From: Auricularia sp. M13
Lineage: Eukaryota; Basidiomycota; Agaricomycetes; Auriculariales; Auriculariaceae
Direction: 5' to 3'
Assembly: GCA_037042915.1 (NCBI GenBank)
Contig: CM073198.1
Location: 2,728,001-2,792,000 of the forward strand
Length of the DNA: 64,000 bases
Shown here in pieces: positions 8,961 through 58,789 of the stretch (its first letter is position 1; every line of letters starts with the position of its first letter). Both the position numbers and the translations under genes were made by a program. The notes beneath the pieces were generated by a model. The model was not told where the DNA came from, searched no databases, and was given only the letters and a program-made list of their open reading frames with translations.

Positions 8961-11204
8961 CTATTTTTTCAGACCCAGCTCTTGCGCGAGGATCTGGAGC
9001 CCTAAATGGCGGCTGTAGAACCGCGCGTGGTTGAAGCCGCCAACGGCGTACCACAGTCCAGGGTGCCCCGATGGCCTGTACATGCCCTTGGTCTCCCCTT
9101 CAGCATCCAGACCCCAGACATCTGTCGTTTTAGCGATGAGATCTGAACCGAAGAGTTTTTCAGCTGTATGCCGTATGCCCTTGTACCCAGTGCTGCAAGG
9201 CTTTGTCAGCAAACGGAGTGGATGCAGTTTGATGCACATACGCAAGTACGACCACATCGGCGGGGACGCGACTCCCATCCGCGAATACCACAGCATCCTC
9301 CTCGTAGCGTTCGATCTCACTGCCCGACTTCACGGCGATTCGGCCTGACGCGATCTGCTTCGCGCAGCCGCGGTCGAGCCAATAGCCACCAAATCTGCGC
9401 TCCTGTTCAGTCCCACGACGCGAAATGCAGACAGGCCTCAAGGGATAAAGAGCGTATACGTACCGCTCTAGCAGGATGCCGAACATGCCAATCTCCCCAC
9501 GGCCGTACTCCTCGCCCCAGGTCAGGCGGAAACCCGCTTGGCGCAAGCTCTCGTGCATCTCCTTATCCGCGGCCTTCTCCATCGCAGTACCTCCGCCCAC
9601 TGCGAGTTGACACAGCGTTCGCTGCGGAAACGCGTTGACAGCGAAGTCGGAGTCCTCCACGGACCTCGTCTCAGGCCAGAGCGAATAGAAATTCTGCTCC
9701 ACGACGGCGAGACTGATTACGCAACTGCGTGTCGTGTGAGTGCGCATGGACGCGGGATCAGCGTGCGTGCCTCACGTCGCAGAGCGCTGCACCATGGTGA
9801 TTTTATCCGCGCCGGAACGAATGAGATCCATGCAGATGTCCGCTGCACTCTGACCCTGAACGACGCTCGTGAATAATAAGGCACCTAACAAAGCAAATCT
9901 TGCTTACCGCCCCGACCACGACCACGTTCTTCCCATTCAGATGGTGGCCGCCCTGATGTTGGCTCGAGTGATAGACTTTTCCCTTGAACGTCTCCTCGCC
10001 CGGCCAATGGACGATGTTCCGCTCGCCAGCGAAGCCTTGGAGAAATACAATGAGCAGACGTCACAGATCAGCGAGTGAAAGTTACCTGTAGCCATTACGA
10101 TGTGCTTCGGGCGAAGATGGACCTCTTTCCCGGCCCGGGATACGACGACAGACCACCTCTTACTGGTGGGGTCGTACTGCGGCAAGGGAAGCATCGTCGT
10201 CGATGTCCACACCGTCAAATCCTGCGATTTGACGTAGGCTTCTAGTGCGTCCGCGACACGGTCCTTGGGCATGTCTAACACAATAATCAGCAAGCAAGAT
10301 CGTCTCGCGGTACAGTGGGGTATCGTACAGTAAGGGAAATTCTTCGGGTAGGTTTCGTAAAGGACTGCATGGATGGGTTAGAGCGAGTTCATTGGCGGAA
10401 TGAGGACAACTGACATGAGCAGATGCGACTAGACGTGTGGAGCTTCAGCGAATCGTATCGCTGCCTCCAGGTGTCACCGACACGTCCCTCTTTCTCAATA
10501 ACGAGCGACGGAATGCCTAAAAGAGGTAAACCCGGGAAGAAGGTCAGATCCGTGTTTGCGCACCCATTTGAGCGAGTCGCGCCGCGCAGAGAAGACCATT
10601 CTGAGCACCGCCGACTGCAGTGCATTAGCGAACACCTAACACAAAGACTGATCCACATACCAATCAAGACGGTAGGATCCGTCTCAATTCGAGCCACCTT
10701 TGCCTGCTGCACCTGCCTCCATGTGAGGTCGTGATCAGCTGGGCGCGCCCCGACGATCTCCTCGTGGCCATCCAGATCGTGCAGCGAAGTGAACAGAGTG
10801 AATGCCTTGAAGCGGCCGTCTTGTGGATCCACCATGAGCCGAGCCATGCCCTTGGCAAAAGCCTTCGGAGACGAGAGCCGCAACGTGAAAAAGAGCTGGA
10901 TGCCTGTGACATCCGGGGGCGCGCCTGGGACGGGGTAGAAGGACGGAGGGCCGAAGTCTGTCCTCTCGTCGAGCTTGAAGGAATGCATGCCGGCGCGAGC
11001 AAGACGCTTCTCCTCGCTGAGAAACTGCTGCACCTCGCTGCGTCCTCCAGGGGAGCGGAAGTCCCACGAGAGGCAGAGCAGGTCGCGATACACCCCGTCA
11101 GGAAGCAGCAAAGCGGCGAAAGCGGCTGGGTCAGCCCGTGAGCAGGCGACGTCAAGGGCGTTCAGCCATTCCTGTGCGAGGGCACGAGCTTGCATGTTGA
11201 CCAT
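8961..11204 (-). CDS. Flavin-containing monooxygenase with N-terminal NTF2/SnoaL-like domain
   Basis: About 590 residues in ten exons (10661-11204, 10564-10614, 10430-10516, 10329-10364, 10086-10274, 9908-10035, 9776-9855, 9460-9724, 9242-9402, 8961-9192). The first ~170 residues look like an NTF2/SnoaL-type fold. An FAD-binding segment follows (TVLIVGGAQNGLLCAARL), then the family stretch RVGDTWRQRYDSLKLHTS and YPKNFPYYMPKDR. The second, NADPH-binding dinucleotide motif is VVVVGAGQSAAD, and VVLATGY near the C-terminus is the flavin-monooxygenase signature. It probably oxygenates a small soft nucleophile or ketone with NADPH and O2; the substrate is unknown. No signal peptide is seen. Such fusions are common in Agaricomycetes. 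Confidence 0.88.
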
Positions 11205-33414: not shown

Positions 33415-34475
33415 TCATACTTTCCATGCCTGCTTTATCCGGTGGATCATGAGCTCGTGCGCCTCATCTCTCGCCTGGACGAACGGGCTGTCAGGCGTTA
33501 CGAAACGCATCCAGCCGTGGCCCGTTCCTTCAACGAGCATCTCCTCGACGTCGTTCCCGCTTTTCCTCAGCTTCGCAACCAACCGCTGAATACTGGGCAG
33601 AAGCGGGTCGCAATCTCCGCACTGGATGGAGTATCAGCTTTGCACCTTTCTCGGGACGAGATCGTCGCTCACAATGATCGTCACTGGAGGGAACGCTTCG
33701 CCGGGCGCGTAGACTGGAGAGAGTCTCGGGTCCTCTCTGTCTACGCCCTCCGGCAAGTATGCCTCCATGATGCGCTGGCGCTCCCAGAGCGGTAGCGGAA
33801 GTCCAGGATTTCCCTTTGGGATGTCGGGAACAAGGTAGTTGCCCGACGGATGCAGCGAGCAATCGACGACAGGGGACATGGCAATGACGCTCTTGATCAG
33901 GCCACATGCCTGGTTCGCGCACACTGCAAGCGCGAGTGCTCCCCCCGACGACGAACCGCTCATGGTGAAGCGAGTGACGTCCCATTCGCTCGGCTGACTG
34001 AGAATGTAGGCGACGACGTCACAGACGTCGTTGTAGCCTCCTGGGAATCGGTGTTCCGGTGCCTTTGCGTAGTCGGTGTCGAGTACGATGCAGTCGGCTT
34101 TCAGAGCGATGTATGCCGCGAACTCAGAATCACTGGGGTGGTGTCAGGCCTCGATCACCCATGCAGTACTGTGATCACTCACGCAGTGAACGTATTCCAC
34201 ATGAATCCAGATCCATGCACGTTCAAGTGCACAGGCAATGGCTTCAGCGTGGACGCGGGGTCGTATCCCGGAGGATAGAAGACGTGAACGGTGATGCTAC
34301 GCCTTGAATCCTTCGTCGACGGGATGCGAATGACGCGGTTGGGCTCAATAGAGAAGGACGCTGGGAGGATGGACCTCGACGACTTCACGGTGCGCATGAA
34401 GATGAATCGCACGCCGAGACGCATGACGAACATCCATAGCTGAAGGCGTAACCAGGCGAACCAAGAAAGAGACAT
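33415..34475 (-). CDS. Alpha/beta hydrolase (HSL-type esterase/lipase), copy 1
   Basis: 319 residues in three exons (34183-34475, 33673-34132, 33415-33621) with introns of 50 and 51 nt. The oxyanion-hole motif of hormone-sensitive-lipase esterases appears as VHLNVHGSGF. The family stretch DTDYAKAPEHRFPGGYND follows. The nucleophile elbow is SGSSSGGALAL (GxSxG), the Asp lies in VDREDPRLSP or CGDCDPLLP, and the His is in GTGHGWMRF. A hydrophobic N-terminus (MSLSWFAWLRLQLWMFV) may be a signal anchor. It should cleave short acyl or carboxyl esters; the substrate is unknown. A close paralogue follows immediately to the right. Confidence 0.88.
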
Positions 34476-35767: not shown

Positions 35768-38700
35768 TCACTTGGTCCAGCTCTGCTGCATGCGGCTCAC
35801 GCAGAGTTGGAGCGCCTCGTCCCGCAAACGAGCAAATTCGCTATCCGGCTCCACCAGTCGCTCGAAACCATGCCCACAGTTTGGCGCAATCATTTCTACA
35901 AGGTCATTCCCACCTTCTTTCAGCTTCGAGATGAATCGGCGAATACTGGGTAACATAGGATCCCGGTCGCCGCACTGGTGGCGTTACCGATGGAATCATA
36001 AGCATAAAGATATCGTAGCGCCGCTGGATTCGCGGCAGTCACCGACTCCTTGCAACGGAGGAACGCCTAGGATCTCATGCAAAGGATATCGATATGTATT
36101 TGGACACATTAGCCAAAAAAAATGATGGGTACAGTATATTGGTATTGAGCGAGCTTTCAATAAGCTCGGTCTCAGTACACCTAAGCTTAGCTTGGCTAAA
36201 ACCGTGCGTTGCAATCGGTGGATCGCGGGGTCACGCTGGCTTCCCCACTCCGAAATGAAACCGCACTATACATGAGGCTGAGAATTTGATTTGGCAGGAT
36301 GCTTCGGGGGTCACACTCAGAGCGCTGCACGCACACCGATATAACAATCTTGCGATGCATGGTTGTCGCAGCGCGCACCACAGTTGCCGCACCTTGTGCC
36401 TTGACAACTTGTAGCTCGAGGAGAATGAGCTGTGCGTCTCGTGCGACGCGACGCAACTGTACTTGGTAGGAACGCCGGCAGCGCAAATGTGATGAGCGGT
36501 TTGGTCGTGTATTCTTAATCGAATGTCAAACGCACCTCGATCTCGGCTCCTGAAGCTTTGAACCTCTCAATCAGGCTACATGCCGCCTCAATGTCTCCAT
36601 TCGCGTGCATGACCTCGCGAAGAGCAGCCGATGAGCCCCTCTGCTTGCGGGCGTGCTCGAGCAGCCCGATTGCATCGCGGATGATCCTGTGCAGTATGGC
36701 ATCAGCATGAGGCGTATACTGCTCATGGCGCTTGCTACATACGTCTGCCTGATGCACACTGCGCTCGAGATTCGAGGATTGCGTATTTGCGCGCTCTCAG
36801 ATGTTTTGCGCATGCTGCGATTCCGCGTTCCTCTTGGATTGCCGCGCATCCCGGAAGTCCACACATCATACAGCATAGGAAACTAATGGAAGAACATGAC
36901 GATGATTCCCGGAGCAGCCGTGCGAACAACGTCTATTGCAGAGAAATGGCGGGAACCTTCCCGCTGGCAACCACCCAGTTGCGAAGCAGCGTGACTTCAG
37001 CCTCGTCGAGCGCGCACTGCGCCCACGCACGCTGAAAGATGTCCCAGTCGAATATGTCACGGTCCCCGGCGACAGACTGCCAGCGCGCGAACAGCCGGGA
37101 AAGCACGGGGCATAGCTGCTTGTGGCCGGCCTTCCAGTCCTCGCGCTGGCAGTCGCGGTGACAGTAGCGCACGAGGCGGCACGTCGCGCACACGAAGAAC
37201 CTCCGCGTGCCGCTCGCGGAGATCTGCTGCGCGCCGCACGTGCAGAACGCGTTCGCGGGGATGGCCGCGCGCCGCGCGTACTCGAAGACGAGCAGCGCCG
37301 TGGGCCGCGGCGGGGCAGTGTCGTTGTGTGTGAGCCGCGCGCGCAGGAGCGCCGCAAACGACACGAGGACCTCGCCCTGCCGCGCGGTGAGCTGCGGCAG
37401 CGCCGTCTTCGCGCGCTCGGCGGCGACGAGGAACGGCACCTCCAGCCCCGCGATGAGGCGCAGCAGGTCCGAGTCCGTATCCGAGTGCGTGCGGCCGCAG
37501 GTCGAGATGAAGTTGATCGTGTCCACGATGCGCTGCACGACGATGGGCGTCCCGCGGCGTACAAAGCTCGTGCTGAGGCTATCACGCGGGCTGAACGGGG
37601 GCACGCCACCCGGCCAGGCGACCAGTTTTGGGGACATAGCTTGCACCATCGCCCAGGCGAGCCGTTCGCGGCGCGGCGGACTCATTACGACGGGGAGGAC
37701 GACGGCTGTGGCTGAATGCATGTAGAGCAGAAGGATGAGGAGCGGATGGAAGGGTTCGGCGGCGGCACAGCACCAGTAGATCAGCACGTCGACGCCGCAC
37801 TCGACGCCAGCGGGAAACATCTGCTCGAGCGAAGTCGGCCAGTGCTGGAGAGGGGGTACGCTTCGAGCGTGCGCGAGCCGTTGACGAGGCCGATGCTGAG
37901 GAGATGGAAAACTTCTGCCACGAAATGTACAAAGACGTCTTTGCCGTCGACGAAGAAGCGGTGCTTTGGGCAGGCTGATTGCGCGTTGCTGAGACTCTGT
38001 CGCACGCGTGAAATAGGCTCACGCTCGAGCGCGTCGAGGATATGCAGACACACTGCAAACAGATGATTTTTCTGCTGCTTGAATTCGTCGATCGCGTCCG
38101 GACAGTCGTATAGGTCTTCGGTCAGACAGTGCTCCGGAAGCATGAACCTGTGTATGGTCAAAGTACGCAGACATTGAGCGCCGCCGAATGATGGCGGGTG
38201 TTTCCAATCGCAGGCAGAAAGGCTGTGACTGGCGCCGTGAAGCAGAAGCAGAACAGGAGCAGTAGACACGCAGAAAGTGCAGTGCAACGGCATAAAGCGC
38301 ATGCGCATGAACAAGGATGCCAAGAGGCCCAGGGCGAGGAAAAGAAAAGGAAAAGAGAAGATCAGGTCGCTTGCAGGAGGGCATATAGACATCAAACGTA
38401 CAGCACATATCGACTCGTGCAGTGTTGCCTCGAAGCATGGACAGGCGTGGATCAAGCTTCAAGGATAGCGCCGTTGAACGGCCAACATGAACGTTGAACT
38501 CGGATGCGCACTGCAAACTCCGCTGCTCTGCGCCGAGTTTGCCAGTCCGTATCTGTCGTTTTGGGAAGCCAACAAATATGTAACACAAAAGCTGGATCGA
38601 CGTACGGGCAGCTGGAACTCGTGGAATCGAAGGATAAGAGTTCTTCTCAAAATTGCAGCAGGGCGCACAAGCGCGCGTCCGCAACGATACTGACAACGAA

Positions 38701-39980
38701 ATGCGGCTATTGGCCGTACTATAAGAGCTGTCCATACGCGAGCACGCTCACGCATACCGACTGACGCTAAAAAAATGATGGCAAGTGAAGCCGCGGCGCG
38801 ACAAGCGCGAGGAAATGGTTATCATCCGAATAATACAAGGCAACATAGCATAAGGCTACAGAAAGCGGTTGAGACGTCCACATGTAGTTTTGCGCGAGCT
38901 GCGGTGACAAAATTGAAAAGTGAGGCGGCTGGGTCTGCGCAGGAGAGTGCATTTAAAGGTGAGTTTCCGAAAAGGGAGGCTGATCGGAGGCAGTTCTTGA
39001 AATCCCATTGGACCGGCAGTCGGACCGGGATTTTTCACTGTTGCAACGAGAGACCCCCCCAGGAAAACCGAATTACCTTAAAAGGTAAGACTTCGTCTAA
39101 CCTATTAAGGAGTCGGTGACTGCACTCACTATTATTGTCACAGGCGGGAATGCATCCGCCGGTGCGTAGATTGGGGAGAGGCGAGGATCTTCTCTGTCCA
39201 CGTCGTCCGGCACGTATGCCTCCTCAAAGCGGCACCTTTCCCACAGGCTAAACGGCATTCCCGGTTGACCTTCCTCAAGTTCGGGGACGGGCGTACGGTT
39301 CGATTCGTGCGTGCTAGGAGGATACTACTGAGTTGGGCGGGCGATTGCGCAAATCAACGCTGACCTGAGATCGACAGGCGGATACCATACTTGTAGGGAC
39401 TTTACTACGCCCTTGGCTTGTGCTGCTGCAACCGAGAGTATGAGACAAGCCCCAGAAGAGCAGCCGCCCATGGTGAAGCGTCCAAGATCCCAGCTCTCTG
39501 GGTGGCTGAGAATATATCCCACGACATCGGAGACATCGTTGTACGCTGCTGGGAATGGACGCTCGGGGGCCTTCGCATAATCGGTGTCCAGAACAATACA
39601 ACCCGCCTTTTGGGCAAGGTAAGCGCAGAGCTCGGAGTCTCTGCAGTTCGATATGGTCAAATGAAATCATCATAAGAGGTTTACACATACTCCGTGAAGA
39701 CCTTATAACAGAATCCGCTCCCGTGTGCGTTCAAATGCACAGGCAGCTTGCTTCTGTCTTGGTCGCCGACGTCGGGCGGGTAGAATACGTTCACGGTAAT
39801 GCGACGCCTGGGGTCGGTTCTCGAAGGAACCGAGAATGACGACTGCGGCCTGACATCTGTTGTCGCTGGTAGAAAATTATAGCGTCGTGGTCCTCTTCGG
39901 AATATGATGCGGATAATGGTGTTCATGAACAGAAACCACGCATGAAGGCGTAGCCACCCGTAAAAGGAGAGAGCGGCCAT
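35768..39980 (-). CDS. Alpha/beta hydrolase, copy 2, with a ~3.16-kb intron holding another gene
   Basis: Coding parts are 39691-39980, 39365-39640, 39130-39313 and 35768-35974. They give 318 residues, one fewer than copy 1, and the last exon is the same 207 nt. Shared landmarks are VHLNAHGSGFCYKVFTE, CIVLDTDYAKAPERPFPAAY, GGCSSGACLI (GxSxG), VDREDPRLSPIYAPADAF and NCGHGFERLVEP with the catalytic His. The intron after AFPPVTII runs from a GTGAGT donor at 39129 to a CAG at 35975, about 60 times longer than in copy 1. It contains a MYND gene on the same strand within a TIR-bounded segment. Every exon is open, so the gene could still work if the long intron is spliced; otherwise it is split. Confidence 0.75.
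36515..36880 (-). CDS. Small hypothetical reading frame downstream of the MYND gene
   Basis: The last part reads well as protein (HADAILHRIIRDAIGLLEHA, LREVMHANGDIEAACSLIER, ending EIEVRLTFD). The upstream part has Cys/His residues resembling a MYND-type finger (MMCGLPGCAAIQEERGIAAC; VCSKRHEQY), but the two halves are in different frames and no ordinary intron joins them. It may be a second, broken MYND gene, or a 3' continuation of the neighbour. Confidence 0.3.
36933..38143 (-). CDS. MYND-type zinc-finger protein nested in the hydrolase intron
   Basis: 389 residues in two exons (37886-38143 and 36933-37844) around a 41-nt intron. It starts MLPEHCLTEDLYDCPDA. The first two-thirds are helical and have no domain I can name. 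The C-terminal MYND finger has cysteines in FCTCGAQ, FVCATCRLVRYCHRDCQREDW and GHKQLC; the first pair is spaced CxC rather than CxxC, and the spacing from the last Cys to His is one residue long. MYND fingers mediate protein contacts and are very numerous in Agaricomycetes, where most have no known function. An ORF extension upstream to 38455 is hydrophobic and probably not coding. Confidence 0.65.
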
Positions 39981-56425: not shown

Positions 56426-58789
56426 TCAGCTCTTGCGATGAAGTTCGGACTGCCTGATGCGCTTCCGCGCCGCGTGCTCAATGCTGAGCCGCTTGTCCGC
56501 CACGCGCTCCTTAACAGCCAAAGAACGCCTCACGTGCTTCAGGCCGAGACTGTCCTGGTGCCCATGCGACGCAGTGCGCTTTTCGGCAAGCTTCGCCACA
56601 ACCTTGGAACGGGAGATGCGCGGACGGCGTGGCGCGAGTCCGGGTTTCACGACCACCTTTTCCACCGCGGGTTCACCTTGCATTCCGACCTTCTCCGAGG
56701 CAGGTTCCCCAGCGGCTGGTGCGGGAGCGTTCGTAATGGCCGCCAACTTCGGGAGAGGCGGGACTGGCGGAGGCGCTTCCCGGACGCTGGCGAGCGGAGA
56801 TTTCGCAGTACCAGCGCTGCTGACCCGCACACGATTCTGAGTCTTGGCGAGAGAACTGGCGGTGGGTGCGAGTAACCTAGATGAAGCGCGCGGCTGAAGA
56901 GATGCACGAGAGCTGACGCTTGTCTTCCCGACGGATGGAGAGCGCATAGAATTCATCGTCATATCACCCGCCTTGCTAGACGTCGAAACCTTGCGCCCCA
57001 GACCCTGAGGTTGTGATGTCGCTGATGAAGAGCGGACCGATGGGGCGCGTTTCGGCGCCGTCGTCAAGGTCGACGGCCTTGACACTGGGCCCAGCGCGGG
57101 CTTGGCCACCTTGGCCGGAGGCTTGACCAGCGTAGAAGGTTTCAGAGTGGGCTTAACATCTGGCTTCGTCGCCGGGTTCCGACCCCAGAGACGACCGACG
57201 AACGATTTCGCGGTGGACATCAGTCCGCCTTTCACTGCGTACAGCTTTGAGTACAAAACCAACAGCGATCAAAAGAAATACACAGACCTGGTCCTGCACC
57301 TGGAGCCACACTGACGCGCCCACGGCTGCTGCGTCTCCTCGCACGCGACATCTCGAGTTTCTTCTTGACGTTCTGCCGCTCGTTCACGATCACTACCTCG
57401 GGCGCTGATTTCGCACTGGGCTCGACGACCTGCACTCGCTGCCTCTTGGGGCTTCTGTTCAGGTCCTCGTCATCGCCGGCGTTCGTAAGCGACCGCTTCT
57501 TTCCGTCATCATCGTCTTCCAGCTTGCGCTTGCCGCCGATGACTGGGGACGTGCGTTTAGCGGCATAATGGTTTAGGATGGAATCCATGTTCTCGAAGAC
57601 TGCGTCGTGTGCCTTGGCAAAGCGGGCCGCGGTGTCGCTCTTCGCGTGTCCCGCCATTGAGGCGGAAGGCTGCGATACGGCAGGCTTGTCCTTCTTGAGA
57701 ATGTTGAGGTCAAGTGCAGCATTAGTACCCTGCAGACCCATACGGCGATTCATCTCGTCCAGAACGGCGTTGGCTGCATTCGCGAACTGGATGTTAGAGA
57801 CCTTGGCTTCGGGCGAACCGAACACGAAGGGCGCAGGGAGAGGAGATCGGCGCGTCGAGGGCGTGCGAGACGGAGTAGGCGCCGCAAGGCGCGAGCGAGT
57901 GGGTGTTGGGAACGCGCCCGGCATAGCGCCACCGTCTTCGTCCTGCTCCTCGGCAGGCTTAAGGCGCGTAGAGAGCGGCGAAGCCTCCGCAAGCTGGAAG
58001 CTGGGAGCGACAGGCCTGAGAGCGGGCGTGGCTGAGCCCCACGATACGGACTGTCCAGACACAAGGCGGATGGTGGGTGGCGCGTCGGGGTCATCAGGTG
58101 GTGCGCTTTCGTTGCAAAGCGAGGGCGGAAGAGCCAACGACTCAGCGTCGTATTCTTTGGCACTAGCGACAAGAGATGTGTTGGCCTCCTCGTCGATGTC
58201 CATTGGTGCGAGCCGGCTGCGCAGGGATGACGAGTTCGACACGGAAACCGACTTGTTGAGGCCAAGAACCGAGCCCGCGCGAACCAAGGAGCTAGCAAAG
58301 GTCTTGATAGAAGAGCTCACCGAGCTCTGACCTGCAGAGGAAAGTGTGAGAAGAGAAAGGAAGCGGCTCTGCGGTGCCACGCGCACTCTTTATACCAGGA
58401 TTGTCGGTGCCAAATTCATTTGGGCTCTGGATGTTGACGCTGGAAGTCAAGCTGGAAGAGGAGGCCGCGGGAATGTCGTCTAGGACCCTGAACTCCTGGA
58501 GTATCTCCCACTGCTGGCTCGGTCGTCCAGACTCGTCCTGCATGGTCACGTCGCCTTCGTCCTCGTCCCCTGAGACTGACGATGCAAGCACGACCGTCGT
58601 ATTTCCACCGCTAGAGTCCACACCGTCGCGCGCTTCTGGGGGCAGCGAGGCCGCATAGGCTTGGAGTTTGTCGATGAGGTCGACGTTCTTGCCCGACGCC
58701 TTAATGCCATGTTTCTTGCAGAGCCTGACAAGCTGCTCGCGCTTGAGCGAGTGGAGCGCGGGGGAGTTGAAGAGTATGTCTGCTGCCAT
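56426..58789 (-). CDS. SAP-domain nuclear protein, otherwise uncharacterised
   Basis: 749 residues in three exons (58387-58789, 57288-58331, 56426-57228). A SAP motif lies at the very N-terminus (ALHSLKREQLVRLCKKHGIK, DLIDKLQAYAASL), predicting DNA or chromatin binding. The rest is disordered, Ser/Pro-rich and basic, with SP/TP sites (TPTRSRLAAPTPSRTPSTRR), possible nuclear signals (KRKLEDDDDGKKRS, SPKRQRVQVVE) and short repeated-looking basic helices near the end (SLGLKHVRRSLAVKERVADK; IEHAARKRIRQSELH). No enzymatic domain is seen. It may be a spindle or chromosome-associated protein; that is a guess. It is divergent from SLX1. Confidence 0.7.

Follow-up and report, generated by a model that had tools for sequence, protein, structure and literature searches.

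A probable Helitron2-like rolling-circle element carrying a captured MYND-finger gene fragment in a hydrolase intron of Auricularia sp. M13

We analysed a stretch of 64,000 nucleotides (nt; hereafter the window) of Auricularia sp. M13 (GCA_037042915.1, contig CM073198.1, positions 2,728,001-2,792,000), in which a gene-bearing mobile element sits inside one intron of a hydrolase gene. Coordinates are window positions unless preceded by a contig label (C1, C2 and so on); the window lies on C6, one of the 14 contigs (52,096,326 bases) of this genome, the sole fungal genome covered, within which all genome comparisons were made. The host gene, hydrolase copy 2, is on the minus strand and belongs to the Abhydrolase_3 family (Pfam, E 4.3e-36). 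Its exon model, set by eye against the neighbouring copy 1 and then checked computationally, has four exons, at 39691-39980 (290 nt, with Abhydrolase_3), 39365-39640 (276 nt), 39130-39313 (184 nt) and 35768-35974 (207 nt), which are all open, as an initial annotation made from the sequence alone had stated, and give 319 codons (stop included). Copy 1 (33415-34475, minus strand) has three exons separated by introns of 50 and 51 nt and provides the element-free comparison; 175 of the 321 aligned columns (stop included) are identical between the two copies. The 207-nt last exon in both of them and the 51-nt intron of copy 1 were also found as annotated, and so was the intron of copy 2 that has a GTGAGT donor starting at 39129 and a CAG acceptor ending at 35975. 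The introns of copy 2 measure 50, 51 and 3155 nt, and the third of them (35975-39129) is made up of 48 nt of host sequence and 3107 nt of element, i.e., a lengthening of about 65-fold from 48 nt, where some 66 nt had been expected to remain once the segment was removed. The insertion point is 10 nt in from the donor end of the intron, and the donor, a CTTAT motif and the acceptor remain. This CTTAT resembles a fungal branch site. With these three signals kept in place, it appears from the sequence that copy 2 could in principle still be spliced across its 3155-nt intron. The insertion looks recent, however, and the open exons are thus no proof of function. In two further hydrolase paralogues on C6, at 2.25 and 2.27 Mb, the alignment is interrupted close to the same residue as in copy 2, and the matches on either side lie 26 and 44 nt apart, while a fourth set of hydrolase matches, on C5, consists of overlapping matches with a stop.

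The segment within the intron had been described as 3089 bp enclosed by a perfect 17-bp terminal inverted repeat. The exact match is there (GCAGTCACCGACTCCTT at 36035-36051 on the plus strand and at 39107-39123 on the minus strand, with 0 mismatches), and at up to 3 mismatches only 1 of 100 shuffles of the sequence gave two or more matches. It is not terminal, though, and only 13 bp of it are shared across the family. The genome search for further copies that had been proposed found 11 exact occurrences of the 17-bp repeat in 52.1 Mb, two of them in the window, which excludes that it occurs nowhere else. Allowing up to 2 mismatches, there were 62 matches (20 on the plus strand and 42 on the minus strand), compared with 14 (8 and 6) when the pattern was reversed as a control, and the repeat is therefore part of a repeated family. 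When the flanks of the copies were compared, the family similarity was seen to continue beyond the 17 bases at one end and to halt 4 bases short at the other. Where the right repeat of the window has its outermost GCAG, the other nine paired copies have GTAA, GCGA, CGCT, TAAG, GAGA, GTCT, TGAA, CCGT and TTAT, so that these four bases (39120-39123) belong to the host intron, making the repeat look 17 bp long through a fortuitous match, and the shared repeat is 13 bp. One copy of it is located exactly at the 5' tip of the element (39107-39119, minus strand) and the other is subterminal, 26 nt inside the 3' end (36039-36051, plus strand). Read on the minus strand, the element starts with TCACCGACTCCTT at 39119 (TCACC...) and ends at 36013 (...CTACGA), that is, 3107 bp at 36013-39119.

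These ends are common to nine other paired elements in the genome. At up to 3 mismatches, the 26-base 5' end CGTCTAACCTAATAAGGAGTCGGTGA had at least 10 matches and the 32-base 3' end ATCGTAGCGCCGCTNGATTCGCGGCAGTCACC at least 16, both counts being lower bounds, and neither reversed control had any. Each of the 10 listed 5' ends has a correctly oriented 3' partner, which is more diverged on C7, and the paired elements span 2.0 to 26.5 kb. The longest pairing (C7:3346755-3373207) is doubtful, as it joins two distant ends and may represent two elements or a single one with nested insertions. The base that precedes the element is A in 4 of the 10 copies, and a T follows it in all 10. Related subfamilies have variant 5' ends, TCACC[GA]ACTCCTAAAAGG..., at C5:4168395, C4:4415047, C5:1725638 and C5:4308208, in elements of ca. 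1.5-2.9 kb. In addition, a stretch of about 77 bp, perhaps longer (C2:4675146-4675222), found 33 bp beyond the 3' end of the element at C2:4675256-4678408, is present at 18 other places with 85-97% identity.

Both ends are associated with predicted hairpins, based on single-sequence DNA folds, with no covariation claimed. The 5' hairpin (39067-39117, minus strand) takes in most of the 5' inverted repeat and folds as single-stranded DNA with z = -3.25 (1 of 200 shuffles was as good); the equivalent hairpin of the C1 copy has z = -4.04. Among the 13 5' ends that were folded, eight are distinct, and the full hairpin including the repeat is predicted in seven of these eight, with only the inner stem in the C7 end. 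The 3' hairpin (36020-36036, minus strand) has a 5-bp GC stem and a 7-nt loop and is situated between the 3' end and the subterminal repeat; folding predicted it in 9 of 10 3' ends.

The joined flanks of the ten elements were searched against the genome for empty sites. For one relative with the same ends, of 20.9 kb (C9:1476114-1496995), we found two paralogous empty sites that match across the junction, 95% and 82% identical. They read GGCCGTTTGCG, and with the element delimited as TCACC...CTACGA, the filled locus consists of GGCCGT, the element and TTGCG. A target-site duplication is absent at both sites, which have one T more than the joined flanks. Following this alignment, the T after all ten copies is a host base (36012 in the window, in the minus reading), and the same boundary applied to the window yields the limits given above. 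Nor was a target-site duplication evident when the ten flank pairs were inspected by eye.

The 20.9-kb relative also clarifies the class of the element. Its three adjoining open stretches together contain Pfam matches to DUF6570, to Helitron_like_N (E 2.8e-25) and to PIF1 helicase (E 2.5e-22). The Helitron_like_N match is on the minus strand of C9:1493255-1493932, and the strand of this Rep gene sets the orientation of the element, 5' to 3' on the minus strand of the window. Scanned against Pfam at E 0.01, the three stretches (the helicase one in full) gave no match to an endonuclease domain, and among solved structures the Rep part had only two weak and unrelated matches. In the helicase stretch (L026:3492-6623, minus strand), the ca. 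200 C-terminal residues had no Pfam match; judged by eye, their Trp/Cys-containing part may resemble cysteine proteases. Across the genome, 4 of the 51 Helitron_like_N matches have such a 3' end, correctly oriented, 17.7-18.9 kb downstream (C1:8217926-8235662, C1:4472055-4490979, C10:3386987-3405139 and C9:1476114-1493932), although in three cases this end was recognised solely by a 17-base match at 1-2 mismatches. The group may commonly include coding elements some 20 kb long.

The asymmetric ends, the lack of a target-site duplication at the relative's empty sites and the Rep and helicase domains of that relative all lead to the Helitron2-like class. Judging from these features, the segment is very probably a non-autonomous, gene-capturing, Helitron2-like rolling-circle transposon of 3107 bp on the minus strand. 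The initial annotation had proposed that a non-autonomous DNA element took up a host gene and landed in an intron, all of which stands; only the class defined by terminal inverted repeats was wrong, given the asymmetric ends and the absence of a duplication at the relative's empty sites. Its remark that there was no transposase is true of the window copy, but the 20.9-kb relative with the same ends carries Rep-helicase domains, and the unknown insertion route offered as an alternative becomes superfluous. We rejected two related classes. The canonical Helitron1 has a 3' CTRR and inserts between A and T, whereas here the 3' end is ...CTACGA and an A precedes the element in 4 of the 10 copies; the Helentrons are defined by an endonuclease fused to the Rep-helicase, for which the relative's three scanned stretches had no Pfam match at E 0.01.

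A number of observations weigh against this assignment. At the relative's empty sites, the match extends over 110 bp on one flank but only 20 bp on the other, and no empty site was found genome-wide with the joined flanks of the window's insertion or of the other eight elements. The 3' hairpin of the window copy is no more stable than shuffled sequences (z = -0.35). The relative's Rep-helicase is spread over three open stretches, with a stop codon between the first two and the third in another frame, so that it may itself be broken. Of the 16 listed 3' ends, nine are in pairs and seven are unpaired with this 5' end; among the latter, four have a variant 5' end nearby and three have none in the stretch examined. 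The genome DNA search did not find the source of element positions 155-995 and 2652-2946. Finally, membership in the Helitron2 clade proper is putative, the label deriving from the ends, the 5' hairpin, and the empty sites and domains of the relative.

The cargo had been annotated as a MYND-finger gene on the same strand. There is indeed MYND sequence on the minus strand, but it is a captured, 5'-truncated and frameshifted copy of a gene found elsewhere on the same contig. The captured fragment (36469-38124, minus strand; element positions 996-2651) was copied from C6:1003118-1004783 and starts inside the donor's open frame; the MYND finger itself (PF01753, Pfam profile match) is at 37110-37238 on the minus strand. 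Captured copy and donor differ by 24 substitutions in 1656 aligned sites, and with a 77%-identical paralogue as outgroup, 11 of these changes fall on the captured lineage and 6 on that of the donor, while 7 could not be placed. Donor and paralogue remain alike upstream of the capture junction, which indicates that the donor arrangement is the older one. The stretches on either side of the MYND piece gave nothing above the Pfam cut-offs, and for the segment that separates it from the 3' end module (36174-36468, minus strand) no other DNA match in the genome was reported. The donor gene lies inside a dense MYND cluster (C6:968334-1101072) that contains, on both strands, 22 of the 93 MYND matches of the genome.

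A sibling element (C9:424121-426463, 2343 bp) has the same ends and a different cargo. The two elements share a 5' segment (38121-39119, minus strand), 98.4% identical over 999 bp, and a 3' segment (36013-36173, minus strand), 98.1% identical over 162 bp when the host T at 36012 is counted. Between them, the sibling's middle 1183 bp and the window's 1947 bp have no blastn similarity (best E 0.1), and the donor of the sibling's middle was not found in the genome, where only a 76-bp match at 84% appeared. The two elements diverge no more than a few bases away from the MYND start, a point where 3-4 bp are common to element and donor. Seven open stretches of four other elements (L010, L017, L015 and L031) were also run against Pfam and none matched a family at E 0.01; we therefore make no claim of host genes in those four.

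Insertion would have begun with a nick at the 5' end of a source copy, made by the Rep-helicase of a relative, and one strand would have been displaced as far as the 3' end. This strand would then have been joined to the hydrolase intron beside a host T, leaving no target-site duplication. The MYND piece would have been gained in a previous round, when copying switched from the element into the MYND gene and later returned to the element, the switch on the 5' side taking place at the 3-4 bp match. An alternative origin of the cargo is end-bypass, in which read-through past a missed 3' end beside the donor gene brought in the MYND piece and a new 3' end was acquired later. It is described as the confirmed mode by which canonical Helitrons capture DNA (PMC5148889). 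Here, the cargo is flanked by two shared segments, and with the last 162 bp nearly identical to those of the sibling, end-bypass would require the element to have reacquired the very same 3' end. Since that 3' end was kept, we consider end-bypass less likely than the copying switch, though it retains a minor share of the probability.

That the MYND copy is a functional gene, transported by the element and maintained by selection, is unlikely. The finger is intact within a 361-codon open stretch, and near the end of the shared 5' segment the window copy has an ATG in frame with the captured start, where the sibling has ATT. Nevertheless, the initial part of the donor frame is absent from the captured copy, and a 10-bp deletion, found neither in the donor nor in the paralogue, shifts the frame. 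The substitutions also fit poorly with a gene under selection, as 8 of the 19 coding differences between captured copy and donor change the amino acid (11 are silent) and the 11 changes of the captured lineage fall 4 at first and 7 at third codon positions. The cargo thus seems, as far as can be read from its sequence, to be a broken gene copy.

A cut-and-paste DNA element with terminal inverted repeats, e.g., a Pack-type element with a captured host gene, was suggested by the perfect 17-bp inverted repeat framing a segment that carries a copy of a host gene. This reading is very improbable, and we rejected it because of the asymmetric ends and the Rep-helicase domains in the coding relative. 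The outer 4 bp of the repeat are present in none of the nine other paired copies, some 23 family-conserved bases extend outside the 17-bp match at the other end, and no duplication was seen, by eye, in the ten flank pairs, nor at the relative's empty sites. An assembly artefact is hardly conceivable, as these ends recur at ten distinct loci, differently flanked and in either orientation, and removal of the element leaves a consistent exon frame and splice sites. Elsewhere in the window, 9541-9577 and 56883-56919 form a 37-nt imperfect inverted repeat (81%) whose arms are 47 kb apart.

Compared with published systems, the Helitron2-like transposon of the window is closest to Helitron2. Those elements have an asymmetric inverted repeat of 8-15 bp, located 0-2 bp from the 5' end and ca. 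20-30 bp from the 3' end, upstream of a hairpin (PMC3627910). The corresponding features here are the 13-bp repeat at 0 and 26 nt from the ends, the 5' hairpin that includes it, a 5' T, and the Rep-helicase in a relative with the same ends (PMC3627910). Target-site duplications, lacking at both paralogous empty sites of the 20.9-kb relative, are described for some Chlamydomonas Helitron2 elements, so that their absence is usual and not absolute (PMC3627910). The differences from Helitron2 are that none of the ten copies has TTTT before the insertion point and that the coding relative is as large as 20.9 kb (PMC3627910). FoHeli of Fusarium oxysporum (PMC5148889) is likewise fungal, with asymmetric repeats, non-autonomous copies and no endonuclease domain. 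It differs in its ends (TCAG or TGCCT versus TCACC here) and in that capture was deduced from database matches, whereas here the donor gene has been located in the same genome (PMC5148889). Helentrons and HINE/DINE-1 elements (PMC4067079) share the subterminal repeats, the 3' palindrome, the T beside the insertion point and the captured, broken gene fragments, including Helentron fragments with putative donors, such as Culex histone genes and a Phytophthora gene; the endonuclease that Helentrons carry fused to the Rep-helicase sets the latter apart. In the basidiomycete Pleurotus ostreatus, the Helitrons HELPO1 and HELPO2 reach 13.7 kb and HELPO1 has extra genes, but their ends are of the canonical type (CTRR, or CTTG in HELPO2) with A-T insertion sites (PMC4289320). 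No P. ostreatus gene fragments are reported in the intact Helitrons of that species (PMC4289320), and both fungal Helitron papers describe host-gene capture as absent or unimportant in the species they studied (PMC4289320, PMC5148889). Among the titles and abstract openings listed by searches of an open-access library, none dealt with this element or with a Helitron in a basidiomycete intron, which is no proof of absence.

There is a slim chance that we see, in the window element and the sibling, two states of a cargo-swapping platform, with a fixed 5' module of about 1 kb, DNA behind it exchanged through copying switches at nearly the same point, and the 3' end kept. Only two elements have this pattern, and the ATT of the sibling in place of the window's ATG also speaks against it. 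If true, a cargo-swapping Helitron2 could trap host gene fragments, with the ATG and a few codons of the module read into the MYND piece. The element type is already known, and the window copy clearly adds one more case of gene theft by a mobile element. With the donor, the captured copy, a sibling with another cargo and a Rep-helicase relative all in one genome, the route of capture can be read from the junctions. The case also illustrates how the chance extension of a subterminal repeat can mimic a perfect terminal inverted repeat. For the fungus itself, the locus is a natural test of whether a compact gene can splice out an intron that has grown from 48 to 3155 nt.

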